Below are positions 21,701 to 45,409 of a DNA stretch of 56,969 bases, one piece after another. The stretch is from Alphaproteobacteria bacterium (lineage in GTDB: Bacteria; Pseudomonadota; Alphaproteobacteria; JAPYRI01), in the NCBI GenBank assembly GCA_029941135.1, contig JAPYRI010000002.1, positions 30,063 through 87,031 on the forward strand, read 5' to 3'. A model generated the notes under the pieces. The model saw only the letters and a program-made list of their open reading frames with translations. It did no database searches and was not told where the DNA came from. Position 1 is the first letter of the stretch. Each line of letters opens with the position of its first letter. The position numbers were made by a program, and so were the translations under genes.

Positions 21701-24063
<2,363 letters not shown>

Positions 24064-35853: not shown

Positions 35854-37011
35854 TTACTGCCGGTCTACCGGCAGGTCGTGCCGGATCCAGGCCTCCATGC
35901 CGCCTTTCAATACCCGCACGTCGGAAAAATTCTGCTGACGCATCAGTTCCGCCGCCGCGGCCGAGCGCTTGTCGGTCTTGCAAATCATGGTGATGGATTT
36001 GGCTTGTTCCGTCGCCAGGTCGTTGATTCGGTTCGGGAGTTCGTCCAAGGGAATGTTGCGCGCGCCCGGAATGTGACCGAGCTCACCGACATATTCGTCA
36101 GGGCCGCGCACATCGATCAATACTTCATCGCTGTTCTGCGCGAGCTTTGCTTGCAGTTCGGGTACGTCAATCCACTGTTCAGGCTTATGGCCGAGTGCAT
36201 AAGGACCGATATCGCCGCGGAACGGCTGCACTAAAAGCCGGTCGAGCCAAAGTTCACGGCCGTCGCGAAACTGGCCGATGCCGATGGTCATGCCCCTATG
36301 GCCGCGCTCGGGCTGATCCCGATAGGTGCCGCACAGCCGATCCCACCACGGCAAACTAAAGCCAAAGTTGCTGTTGGTCTCATGGGGGAGGTCCGAATGG
36401 TGAATCCGGTGCATGTCTGGGGTTACAACAATCCAGCGCAACACGCGGTCGATGGCCGGCGCGATGTGGATGTTGCCGTGATTAAACATCGATGTACCGT
36501 TCAACAGCACCTCGAAGATGAGTACCGCTACAGGCGGCGCGCCCAAGGCCGATACCACGACCAGCTTCAAGCCCATGGACAGCACAATTTCGATCGGATG
36601 AAAGCGTGCGCCGGTGGTCACATCGAAATCCAGGTCCGTGTGGTGCATACGGTGCAATCGCCATAGGGCGGGGACCGCATGAAACATCATGTGCTGAAGG
36701 TAAACGACAAAATCGAGGATGATGACGGCGAGAACGATCGCGACAAGCGGCGGCAGATCAGTAGTATTCAAAAGTCCCCAGCCGTTTTGTTGGGCGATGG
36801 CAGCCGTACCCACGGCGGCGACCGGAAACGCAAAACGGGCAATGACCGAGTTAAAGACGACGATGCCAAGATTATTAGGCCAGCGCTGCCAGCGCGAGAA
36901 GGCGCGGGTCCGGCAGGGGGCAGCCGCCTCCCACACCCCAATCGTCAAGAGGATGGCCCCGAAGCAGGCCATGCGGATCAGCGGCTCGTTGGCGAGGATC
37001 AAGTCTACCAT
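35854..37011 (-). CDS. Sterol desaturase/fatty acid hydroxylase fused to a rhodanese domain
   Basis: A 385-aa fusion. The first 265 residues are a membrane di-iron hydroxylase with three histidine boxes, HMMFH, HRMHH and HRIHH, and several hydrophobic segments. Residues from about 280 form a rhodanese domain: VLIDVRGPDEYVGELGHIPG, then the active-site loop MICKTDKRS with the catalytic Cys, and GGMEAWIRHDLP. This joins an O2-dependent lipid-type oxygenase to a sulfur-transfer domain. ATG 37011 is preferred over the track's GTG 37020. It diverges from the arsR-type gene, which also carries a rhodanese domain. The substrate is unknown. Confidence 0.9.
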   Translation of the reverse strand: MVDLILANEPLIRMACFGAILLTIGVWEAAAPCRTRAFSRWQRWPNNLGIVVFNSVIARFAFPVAAVGTAAIAQQNGWGLLNTTDLPPLVAIVLAVIILDFVVYLQHMMFHAVPALWRLHRMHHTDLDFDVTTGARFHPIEIVLSMGLKLVVVSALGAPPVAVLIFEVLLNGTSMFNHGNIHIAPAIDRVLRWIVVTPDMHRIHHSDLPHETNSNFGFSLPWWDRLCGTYRDQPERGHRGMTIGIGQFRDGRELWLDRLLVQPFRGDIGPYALGHKPEQWIDVPELQAKLAQNSDEVLIDVRGPDEYVGELGHIPGARNIPLDELPNRINDLATEQAKSITMICKTDKRSAAAAELMRQQNFSDVRVLKGGMEAWIRHDLPVDRQ

Positions 37012-37043
37012 GGGTGCCACCTTATACTAAAGTAATTAATTGA

Positions 37044-37072
37044 ATAATGTTCGATAGAGCTCAGCTTGTCAA
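37044..37072 (-). promoter_or_regulatory. Candidate sigma70 promoter for the sterol desaturase/rhodanese gene
   Basis: On the reverse strand a consensus -35 TTGACA (37067-37072) is followed after exactly 17 bp by CATTAT (37044-37049, 4 of 6 matches to TATAAT). It points to the gene starting at ATG 37011. Assignment is by inspection only. Confidence 0.6.
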
Positions 37073-37118
37073 GATTAATTACCTAAGTAAATATTTATTA
37101 AATATGATGAAAATTCAT

Positions 37119-37147
37119 TTGTATTCCAAAGTGGGATAATCTATATT
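37119..37147 (+). promoter_or_regulatory. Candidate sigma70 promoter for the arsR/rhodanese-mco operon
   Basis: TTGTAT (37119-37124) and TATATT (37142-37147) are separated by 17 bp, with the predicted start near 37154, about 36 nt before ATG 37190. The -10 box overlaps an inverted repeat that could be the ArsR operator. Confidence 0.5.
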
Positions 37148-37177
37148 CAAGGAATCTATTGAAAGATAGTAGAATAT
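37143..37177. promoter_or_regulatory. Candidate operator: interrupted inverted repeat over the -10 and start site
   Basis: ATATTC (37143-37148) and GAATAT (37172-37177) are perfect inverted arms 23 bp apart, with an inner CTAT/ATAG pair. The left arm lies within the proposed -10 box. The position suits autorepression by the ArsR-type protein encoded just downstream. Confidence 0.35.
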
Positions 37178-37189
37178 CGAGTAAAATAA

Positions 37190-37870
37190 ATGTCCGTGAG
37201 CGCACCCAGTCCCCACCATCAAATGCTTGAACATTTTGCCACCATGGCCAAGGCGCTGGGTCATGTTCATCGCCTGGATTTGTTGGAATACCTGGCGCAA
37301 GGGGCGCGCGGGGTCGACGAACTGGCGGCGCTTGCGGGCCTCAGCATCGCCAACACCTCCCAGCACCTGCTTCAGCTCCACCGGGCCGGATTGGTCACGT
37401 CGCAGAAATCCGGAGTGCGGGTGATCTATCGCTTGTCCGGGGATGACGTGGTCGACTTGCTGGGGGCGCTGCGCCACACCGCCACGCGGCACATGTCTGA
37501 GATTGACGCGGTCATCGACGGCTACTTCCGCGCCCGGGATATCTTGGAGCCGGTGTCGCGGGAAGAGTTGCTGCGCCGGGCACGTGACGGCCTGGTGACC
37601 GTGCTCGATGTGCGGCCAACGGGTGAGTATGCGGCAGGTCATATTCCTGGTGCAATCAATCTGCCGATAGACGAACTGGAGCGGCAGTTGGCTGAGCTGC
37701 CTCCGGGCCGCGAAGTGATTGCCTACTGCCGTGGACCCTATTGTGTGTTCGCGTTCGAAGCGGTTGCTTTGTTGCGCGCGCGCGGCGTCGAGGCCCGCCG
37801 ACTGGAGGGTGGCTACCCGGAATGGAAGGCCGCCGGGCTGCCGCTCGAGACAGCGACCGCGACCCCGTGA
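37190..37870 (+). CDS. ArsR-family transcriptional regulator fused to a rhodanese domain
   Basis: A 226-aa regulator. Residues about 10-95 are a winged helix-turn-helix (DELAALAGLSIANTSQHLLQ is the recognition region). Residues about 120-220 are a rhodanese domain (VLDVRPTGEYAAGHIPGAIN, loop AYCRGPYCVFAF, GGYPEWKAAG). The only two cysteines in the whole protein are Cys180 and Cys185 of that loop; the DNA-binding half has none. A sensor of sulfane sulfur, redox state or metal through this CxxxxC pair is a reasonable guess. Its stop overlaps the start of a multicopper oxidase gene (GTGA), and a rhodanese-bearing gene diverges from it. Confidence 0.92.
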   Translation: MSVSAPSPHHQMLEHFATMAKALGHVHRLDLLEYLAQGARGVDELAALAGLSIANTSQHLLQLHRAGLVTSQKSGVRVIYRLSGDDVVDLLGALRHTATRHMSEIDAVIDGYFRARDILEPVSREELLRRARDGLVTVLDVRPTGEYAAGHIPGAINLPIDELERQLAELPPGREVIAYCRGPYCVFAFEAVALLRARGVEARRLEGGYPEWKAAGLPLETATATP

Positions 37871-39447
37871 TTTCGCGAAGAACAGTGCTTGGCGGAGTTC
37901 TCATTGGCGGCGCGGGTCTTGCGGATATTGGATTATGGCGATACCGATCCCGGCGCGACCCGAGCTTGGGCGCGGCAGGGCCTGCAACCGAACCGCAGCC
38001 GCTCGCCATTCCGGAAATAATGGACGGCGTTTTGCACGACGGCTTGCGCACCTACGATCTCGAACTGCGCACGGGGGTTTCCCATTTTTTCCCGGGGCTC
38101 GACACCCCCACCCTCGGCATCAACGGCGATTATCTGGGACCGACCTTGAGAATACAGGCGGGATCTGATGTACGCATAAATGTGACCAATCGCATCGGCG
38201 CGGCGAGCACCCTTCATTGGCACGGCCTTCACCTGCCCGCCCGCATGGACGGCGGTCCGCATCAGGTGATCAGGGACGGCGAGACCTGGTCGCCCGAGTT
38301 TACGGTGAAGCAGCGCGCCGCAATGTTCTGGTACCACTCGCACATGGTGCCTCATACGGGCCGACAGGTTTATCAGGGTCTCGCCGGGCTTATCTACGTG
38401 GAGGATGATGAGACATCGCAGCTTAATCTGCCGCGCGACTATGGGATCGACGATATTCCGCTCGTCTTGCAGGACCGCGCTTTTAATGGCGACGGCTCGC
38501 TTCTTTACGATACCGGCATGCGCAGCCGCATGATGGGCATGCGCGGGGATGTGATGCTGGTGAATGGGACAGTGCGGCCTTATTTTGCGGCACAAACCGA
38601 CAAACTGCGCCTGCGTCTGTTAAACGGCTCCAATTCGCGCTTTCACACCTTGGGTTTCGCCGACGGCCGCGCTTTTTTTCAAATTGGCACCGACGGCGGT
38701 CTTTTGCGACATCCGGTTGAGACAGCGCGATTGACTCTTGCGCCGGGGGAGCGCGCGCAGATCATTGTTAATTTGGGCGACGGCCGCCCGGCCCAGTTGC
38801 GGACTTATCAGACACCTGTATCAGGACAGATGGGACAAATGATGCGCCGTATGATGGGCGACGACTTGGTGTTCGATGTGCTCCAGATTAGGCCGGAGGC
38901 GCAGCGCCGCATATCAGGCCCACTGCCGCAAAAATTGATCGCCTTGGTGCCCCCCGATCCCACTCGCGCCGTCCGCATGCGGCGTTTCGTGTTGCGCATG
39001 GGCATGATGGGGGGCGGGATGATGGGAGGGACGGGGAGTGAACGCGGGATGATGGGAAGCCGAGGAATGATGGGCGGCATGCGCGGCGAAGGCGGTATGC
39101 GGGGCGGTTTCACCATCAACGGCAAGGAAATGGACATGAACCGGGTGGACGAGACGGTCAAGGTGGGCACGTCTGAAATTTGGCAGATCGAGAACCCATC
39201 GATGATGGCTCATCCGTTCCACATTCACGACGTGCAGTTCCGCATTCTTGACCGCAATGGCGCCCCGCCTGCTCCCGGTGAGAGGGGCCTCAAAGACACG
39301 GTGGTCGTCAATGTGGGCGAGCGCGTTCGCCTGCTGCTCGATTTTGTCGACTACGCCGACCCGGACCGCCCCTACATGTACCATTGCCACATATTGGAGC
39401 ACGAAGACGCGGGCATGATGGGGCAGTTTGTGGTGACTGCCAGGTGA
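37867..39447 (+). CDS. Tat-exported multicopper oxidase with Met-rich insert
   Basis: A three-domain copper oxidase of about 526 aa (CueO/CopA/SufI-like). I start at GTG 37867, overlapping the regulator's stop, which yields the twin-arginine signal SRRTVLGGVLIGGAG. Copper ligands are in TLHWHGLHLP, MFWYHSHM, MAHPFHIHDVQF and YHCHILEHEDAGMM (T1, T2 and T3 sites complete). Between them, around residues 375-415, lies a Met/Gly-rich stretch (MGMMGGGMMGG and repeats), as in cuprous oxidases that handle Cu(I). Likely periplasmic oxidation of Cu(I) or another small substrate; the link to rhodanese suggests copper or sulfur stress (inference). Confidence 0.93.
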   Translation: MISRRTVLGGVLIGGAGLADIGLWRYRSRRDPSLGAAGPATEPQPLAIPEIMDGVLHDGLRTYDLELRTGVSHFFPGLDTPTLGINGDYLGPTLRIQAGSDVRINVTNRIGAASTLHWHGLHLPARMDGGPHQVIRDGETWSPEFTVKQRAAMFWYHSHMVPHTGRQVYQGLAGLIYVEDDETSQLNLPRDYGIDDIPLVLQDRAFNGDGSLLYDTGMRSRMMGMRGDVMLVNGTVRPYFAAQTDKLRLRLLNGSNSRFHTLGFADGRAFFQIGTDGGLLRHPVETARLTLAPGERAQIIVNLGDGRPAQLRTYQTPVSGQMGQMMRRMMGDDLVFDVLQIRPEAQRRISGPLPQKLIALVPPDPTRAVRMRRFVLRMGMMGGGMMGGTGSERGMMGSRGMMGGMRGEGGMRGGFTINGKEMDMNRVDETVKVGTSEIWQIENPSMMAHPFHIHDVQFRILDRNGAPPAPGERGLKDTVVVNVGERVRLLLDFVDYADPDRPYMYHCHILEHEDAGMMGQFVVTAR

Positions 39448-45334: not shown

Positions 45335-45409
45335 TGGGGCGTAGCCAAGTGGTAAGGCACCGGTTTTTGGTATCGGCATTCGCAGGTTCGATCCCTGCCG
45401 CCCCAGCCA
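45335..45409 (+). tRNA. tRNA-Gln (anticodon TTG)
   Basis: A complete cloverleaf with encoded CCA. Acceptor arms TGGGGCG/CGCCCCA pair fully. The D arm is GCCAAGTGGTAAGGC, the anticodon stem-loop CCGGTTTTTGGTATCGG has anticodon TTG, and the T arm is GCAGGTTCGATCCCTGC. The discriminator is G, followed by CCA. AT-rich DNA and repeats follow immediately. Confidence 0.95.

Follow-up and report, generated by a model that had tools for sequence, protein, structure and literature searches.

In the ArsR-type repressors SqrR and BigR, the sensor cysteine pair is placed within the winged-helix domain. The mycobacterial protein Rv0324 (226 aa) is an ArsR-rhodanese protein, like the one described below. 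In PMC9480834, it is described solely as a regulator connected with tolerance to bedaquiline, and neither a hydroxylase partner nor a sulfur signal is reported there. SqrR, BigR, YgaV and SoxR combine an ArsR winged helix with sulfur-handling neighbours, expected autoregulation, and AT-rich inverted-repeat operators with ATTC...GAAT ends (PMC9774250, PMC12423496); the operator deduced for SqrR is ATTC-N8-GAAT (PMC9774250). We analyzed a locus in which an ArsR-rhodanese regulator resembles these repressors. It lies in a stretch of 56,969 nucleotides (the window; contig JAPYRI010000002.1 of assembly GCA_029941135.1, positions 30,063 to 87,031) from an alphaproteobacterium whose assembly comprises 3.02 Mb and 178 contigs, and encodes, besides the regulator, a divergent membrane hydroxylase fused to a rhodanese and a multicopper oxidase (Table 1). 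From sequence comparisons, the unit is probably a reduced and fused representative of an ArsR regulon that is widespread and responds to sulfane sulfur, the main target being the membrane di-iron hydroxylase.

The regulator and the hydroxylase form a recurrent pair. The scan of genome contigs with the hydroxylase profile yielded at least 80 loci, which together with five plasmid loci and the window make 86. After clustering of open reading frames (ORFs), an ArsR-rhodanese gene was found divergent from the hydroxylase gene in 42 of these 86 loci among the matches listed, the window included, and it was nearly always immediately adjacent. According to the record titles, the linked loci come from Rhodobacterales, Hyphomicrobiales, Rhodospirillales and some Gammaproteobacteria, as well as from bins labelled Deltaproteobacteria and Vicinamibacterales, and plasmids carrying the pair belong to Roseibium, Fuscovulum and Sulfitobacter; many loci were chosen via the hydroxylase, some are near-copies, and several are metagenome bins whose taxon labels could be wrong. 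In the reciprocal search, for which only the regulator was used as query, it was found in 44 genomes of a 399-genome sample of the phylum, and 17 of the 34 regulator loci read had an adjacent divergent hydroxylase. Regulator linkage needs 24 changes on the hydroxylase tree, at least seven of them forced by well-supported branches, and so has been gained or lost many times. In linked loci, the divergence of the hydroxylase is correlated with that of the regulator (Mantel r = 0.665, 0 of 2000 permutations). The initial annotation had regarded the lack of a repeated neighbourhood in other genomes as grounds for rejecting a common circuit; as the pair recurs, these grounds fall away. No paper describing the pair turned up among open-access papers, and the regulon is apparently undescribed.

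The recurrence, the conserved operator and the correlated divergence also make it highly improbable that three unrelated genes merely happen to adjoin in this genome, and for the regulator-hydroxylase pair they already refute such a chance neighbourhood. Still, none of the other loci read has the same three genes with translational coupling of the oxidase to the regulator, and chance may hold for the oxidase alone.

The operator was defined by comparative footprinting. The 42 divergent spacers among the matches listed have in common the inverted repeat ATTCAA-N8-TTGAAT, perfect in 28 of them and with at most one mismatch in 40; the shared repeat was found with the 8-base spacer only, and dinucleotide shuffles give 0.04. 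It usually lies 19-26 bp ahead of the regulator start, and the regulator-side copy in the window has the same placement. Scored with a weight matrix built without the window, the two window copies (Table 1) are followed by a next best window site of 8.8. The copy on the hydroxylase side shares bases with the end of a promoter-like site (37072-37044), and the one on the regulator side overlaps a promoter-like site at 37159-37187. Among 60 hydroxylase regions from across the class, the site was present near the hydroxylase in all seven that have the regulator (one of them, L158, duplicates the training locus L020) and in none of the 53 that lack it. In the phylum sample, 21 of the 34 regulators have an upstream site with at most one mismatch (shuffles, 0.015), and 10 of the 17 regulators without a visible hydroxylase neighbour still carry it. 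The operator thus follows the regulator and not the target, and the regulator would be the protein that binds it. A wider regulon in this genome was considered and rejected: other one-mismatch matches reach at most 13.3 versus 27, which is chance level, two-mismatch matches elsewhere in the genome having been scored in part.

As described in the initial annotation, the hydroxylase-rhodanese and ArsR-rhodanese fusions face away from each other over about 180 bp at the coordinates it gave, and the regulator is coupled to a multicopper oxidase with a twin-arginine (Tat) type leader. The hydroxylase likely starts at the ATG at 37011, which leaves an AT-rich spacer of 178 bp, and a GTGA overlap joins the end of the regulator to the oxidase start.

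Table 1. Features of the hydroxylase-regulator-oxidase locus (35854-39447; positions in the window)
Feature	Position	Strand	Evidence
Membrane FA_hydroxylase-superfamily enzyme with C-terminal rhodanese (loop CKTDKRS)	35854..37020	-	PF04116, PF00581, His boxes
Operator copy near hydroxylase start	37026..37045		minus-strand ATTCAA-N8-TTTAGT, 2 mismatches; weight-matrix score 26.7
Operator copy near regulator start	37145..37164		minus-strand TTTCAA-N8-TTGAAT, 1 mismatch; weight-matrix score 27.3
ArsR winged-helix regulator with C-terminal rhodanese (loop CRGPYC)	37190..37870	+	NF033788, PF00581
CueO-like multicopper oxidase, Tat-type leader, Met-rich insert	37867..39447	+	Cu-oxidase_3, Cu-oxidase_2, CueO model

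The helix-turn-helix (HTH) domain of the regulator scores 67.5 bits with NF033788, the model of the ArsR/SmtB metalloregulator subfamily (cutoff 55), and its rhodanese domain scores 70.7 bits with PF00581 (cutoff 22.2). Its sole cysteines, C180 and C185, both belong to the rhodanese loop CRGxxC; among the matches listed, they are conserved without exception in all 42 relatives. In the alignment of relatives, no metal-site cysteines are conserved in the HTH, where the single invariant histidine, H59, is part of the recognition-helix motif SQHL; the ArsR/SmtB metal-binding Cys/His site was found neither in the HTH nor in the dimer helix. The confinement of the cysteines to the rhodanese loop speaks for a sensor of sulfur or thiols and against a metal site of the classical ArsR kind. 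Both domains are well folded in the AlphaFold2 (AF2) model (predicted local distance difference test, pLDDT, 89). The fold search recovered merely the two domains separately, the closest solved HTH structures being 2kko/3gw2, of the Rv0324/Mb0332 type.

Unlike SqrR and BigR, the regulator has its thiols in the fused rhodanese loop and not in the HTH, and its target is a membrane hydroxylase. The conserved site is ATTC-N12-GAAT, in contrast to the shorter SqrR operator, and the BigR equivalog model gives only 32.3 bits with a cutoff of 155. The regulator seems to work like the sulfur-responsive repressors SqrR, BigR and SoxR, yet its cysteines, operator spacing and model score place it outside their families.

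To characterize the gene company, we compared 41 regulator-linked and 82 regulator-less hydroxylase loci, the window being left out and near-copies removed. Genes enriched with the regulator encode DsrE (19/41 vs. 4/82), VTT-type rhodanese (15/41 vs. 3/82), stand-alone rhodanese (10/41 vs. 0/82), cysteine desulfurase (8/41 vs. 2/82), MFS transporters and nucleoside phosphorylase (each 7/41 vs. 0/82), and DUF1499 proteins (5/41 vs. 0/82). The longest alphaproteobacterial arrangement that we read, in a Hoeflea metagenome-assembled genome (L060:10001-15500), comprises hydroxylase, MFS, DUF1499, DsrE, rhodanese, cysteine desulfurase and nucleoside phosphorylase. A cousin of the regulator on a Methylocystis plasmid (L279:879-5672) faces genes for an MBL-fold hydrolase, MFS, SHOCT, DsrE and cysteine desulfurase; the plasmid cousins in L277, near soxB, and L280, near merA, likewise stand opposite genes for an MBL-fold hydrolase and an MFS transporter. 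The plasmid cousin near soxB is from Bradyrhizobium.

In another lineage of the same phylum, not marked as the same class, the regulator faces a multihaem operon (L259:6447-11544, L261:6319-11256, L265, L267) with genes for hydroxylase, a NapH-like 4Fe-4S membrane protein, a multihaem (octahaem) cytochrome similar to HAO/hydrazine dehydrogenase, and VTT-rhodanese. The NapH-like and HAO-like parts are fused in one ORF of ∼800 aa in L259 and L265; L261 adds a DsrE-like protein, L259 adds a small multihaem cytochrome, and the regulator locus of L267 shows no hydroxylase. These octahaem and NapH-like genes, together with the operon-like strings of cysteine desulfurase, DsrE, DUF1499, phosphorylase and MFS genes, could suggest that the locus makes, or degrades and excretes, one sulfur-bearing metabolite, with the regulator sensing an intermediate and no stress response involved. 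We consider this quite unlikely, as the accessory genes are highly variable and all missing from the window, and typical assembly enzymes are absent.

Copper was the other signal offered by the initial annotation, which had called the unit sulfur- or copper-responsive. In the oxidase of the window, Cu-oxidase_3 and Cu-oxidase_2 score 107.5 and 96.2 bits, all copper-ligand motifs are present (HWHG, HSH, HPFHIH, HCHILEH...M), and the protein has an N-terminal twin-arginine motif SRRTVLGG and a Met-rich insert MMGGGMMGG. These features and the nearest solved structures, which are CueO-type, liken it to CueO; unlike CueO, it scores 447.6 bits with the equivalog model, below the cutoff of 525, and is encoded behind an ArsR-rhodanese regulator. 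This coupling, and the fact that some loci have mercury, copper ATPase or multicopper oxidase genes nearby, would fit a stress circuit for copper or other thiophilic metals, in which the regulator senses Cu, Hg or As via the CRGxxC thiols and the hydroxylase, rhodanese and oxidase provide metal tolerance. Such a circuit is unlikely, however, as multicopper oxidases are no more frequent with the regulator than without it (3/41 vs. 4/82, p = 0.68), its HTH has no metal-site cysteines, and the strongest enrichments are those of sulfur-transfer genes. Moreover, in four Roseobacter-type loci (L007, L046, L047, L081) an oxidase gene precedes the hydroxylase gene, with neither the regulator nor its operator; there is thus a looser link with copper, but not one that the regulator follows. 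The oxidase comparison gives no general support to copper as a shared signal, although in this genome it may play that role, whereas sulfur is favoured by both the loop cysteines and the gene company. The single circuit of the initial annotation therefore holds for the regulator and the divergent hydroxylase, which recurrence and the spacer operator make one regulatory unit, but not for copper as its general part. The oxidase is probably a local capture that adds copper oxidation to the same response.

The hydroxylase belongs to the fatty acid hydroxylase superfamily: PF04116 scores 97 bits at residues 96-232 (cutoff 31), and the His boxes H110/H114, H123/H126/H127, H181 and H204/H207/H208 are invariant in 35 relatives. 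These motifs point to a membrane di-iron enzyme, whose substrate would most likely be a membrane lipid. Its profile had no match in the PDB. The fused rhodanese scores 69.1 bits with PF00581 at residues 288-380 (cutoff 22.2) and retains the catalytic-loop cysteine. In many relatives, the hydroxylase gene is followed by a VTT-rhodanese gene, whose reading frame often touches the hydroxylase stop. The fused rhodanese and the VTT-rhodaneses share the loop, mostly C[KR]TDKRS, and the fused domain is closer to the rhodanese half of VTT-rhodanese (about 39-53% identity) than to the rhodanese of the regulators. The two rhodaneses that led to the label of a two-rhodanese module are thus both present, but they come from different families. 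In L023, L173 and L183, the same rhodanese starts 114-150 bases past the hydroxylase match and lacks the VTT part, and L023 encodes it as a gene separate from the hydroxylase. The fusion in the window looks as if the VTT part was lost first and the rhodanese then joined the hydroxylase. In a sample of 385 class members, 91 genomes have the hydroxylase, and no further full-length hydroxylase-rhodanese fusion was found among them.

Several points weigh against a sulfane-sulfur regulon with a lipid hydroxylase as its main target. Copper P-type ATPase genes are found near 3/41 regulator-linked loci and 0/82 others (p = 0.035), and mercury genes are near regulator cousins in Acidithiobacillus and Methylobacterium plasmids, so the regulator could instead respond to a thiophilic metal or some other thiol-active agent; sulfur is favoured from the domain type and the gene company. 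The nearest named family of the hydroxylase is OlsE, with which it shares the PF04116 di-iron His boxes and membrane helices, but the OlsE equivalog model gives 93.2 bits with a cutoff of 475, and the window's enzyme, unlike OlsE, carries a fused rhodanese. In addition, the AF2 model of the hydroxylase fusion is poor (pLDDT 66.8).

The unit seems to have been inserted into core gene order, as the initial annotation proposed. In 23 of the 29 other class members examined, the UDG and ETF-QO genes are direct neighbours in divergent orientation, with slt mostly after UDG, and therefore the unit sits within an otherwise stable order. Terminal repeats of mobile elements were looked for at the unit edges and none were found. 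Elsewhere in the window, tRNA-Gln (TTG) is at 45335-45409, ∼1.2 kb past ispE, and a DNA methylase (N6_N4_Mtase) with a C-terminal RAMA domain is encoded at 22813-24045 on the minus strand.

Under the sulfane-sulfur reading, the ArsR-rhodanese protein would bind ATTCAA-N8-TTGAAT and repress the divergently transcribed hydroxylase gene as well as the operon of the regulator itself. Persulfide or polysulfide would load Cys180 of the rhodanese loop, probably with a bridge to Cys185, and the sulfur-loaded regulator would lose DNA binding, allowing expression of both arms. The products would be a membrane di-iron hydroxylase, with a membrane lipid as its most likely substrate, and a rhodanese tethered to the membrane, which may accept or hand on sulfane sulfur. 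In relatives, the same switch stands beside VTT-rhodanese, DsrE/TusD-like proteins, NifS-like cysteine desulfurase and MFS exporters, which could form a sulfur relay. In the genome studied here, with the CueO-like oxidase behind the regulator, induction would extend to periplasmic copper oxidation, a local feature.

We tentatively suggest that ArsR-rhodanese proteins may be a distinct class of sulfur sensors, with the rhodanese active-site loop as the sensing element. Their commonest output, lipid hydroxylation and a membrane-tethered sulfur carrier, could then be a membrane-remodelling arm of the response to reactive-sulfur stress that both chromosomes and plasmids carry throughout Proteobacteria; the fusion in the window would be a physical trace of the coupling. 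If the sulfur reading is true, the label "metalloregulator" on these proteins is misleading. The analysis assigns a regulator, a precisely defined operator and a set of targets to a regulon whose members are now annotated apart, as "metalloregulator" and "sterol desaturase family protein", and the operator allows a direct test of the claim in carriers that can be cultured. If true, this would mean that bacteria meet reactive sulfur partly through membrane lipid change.

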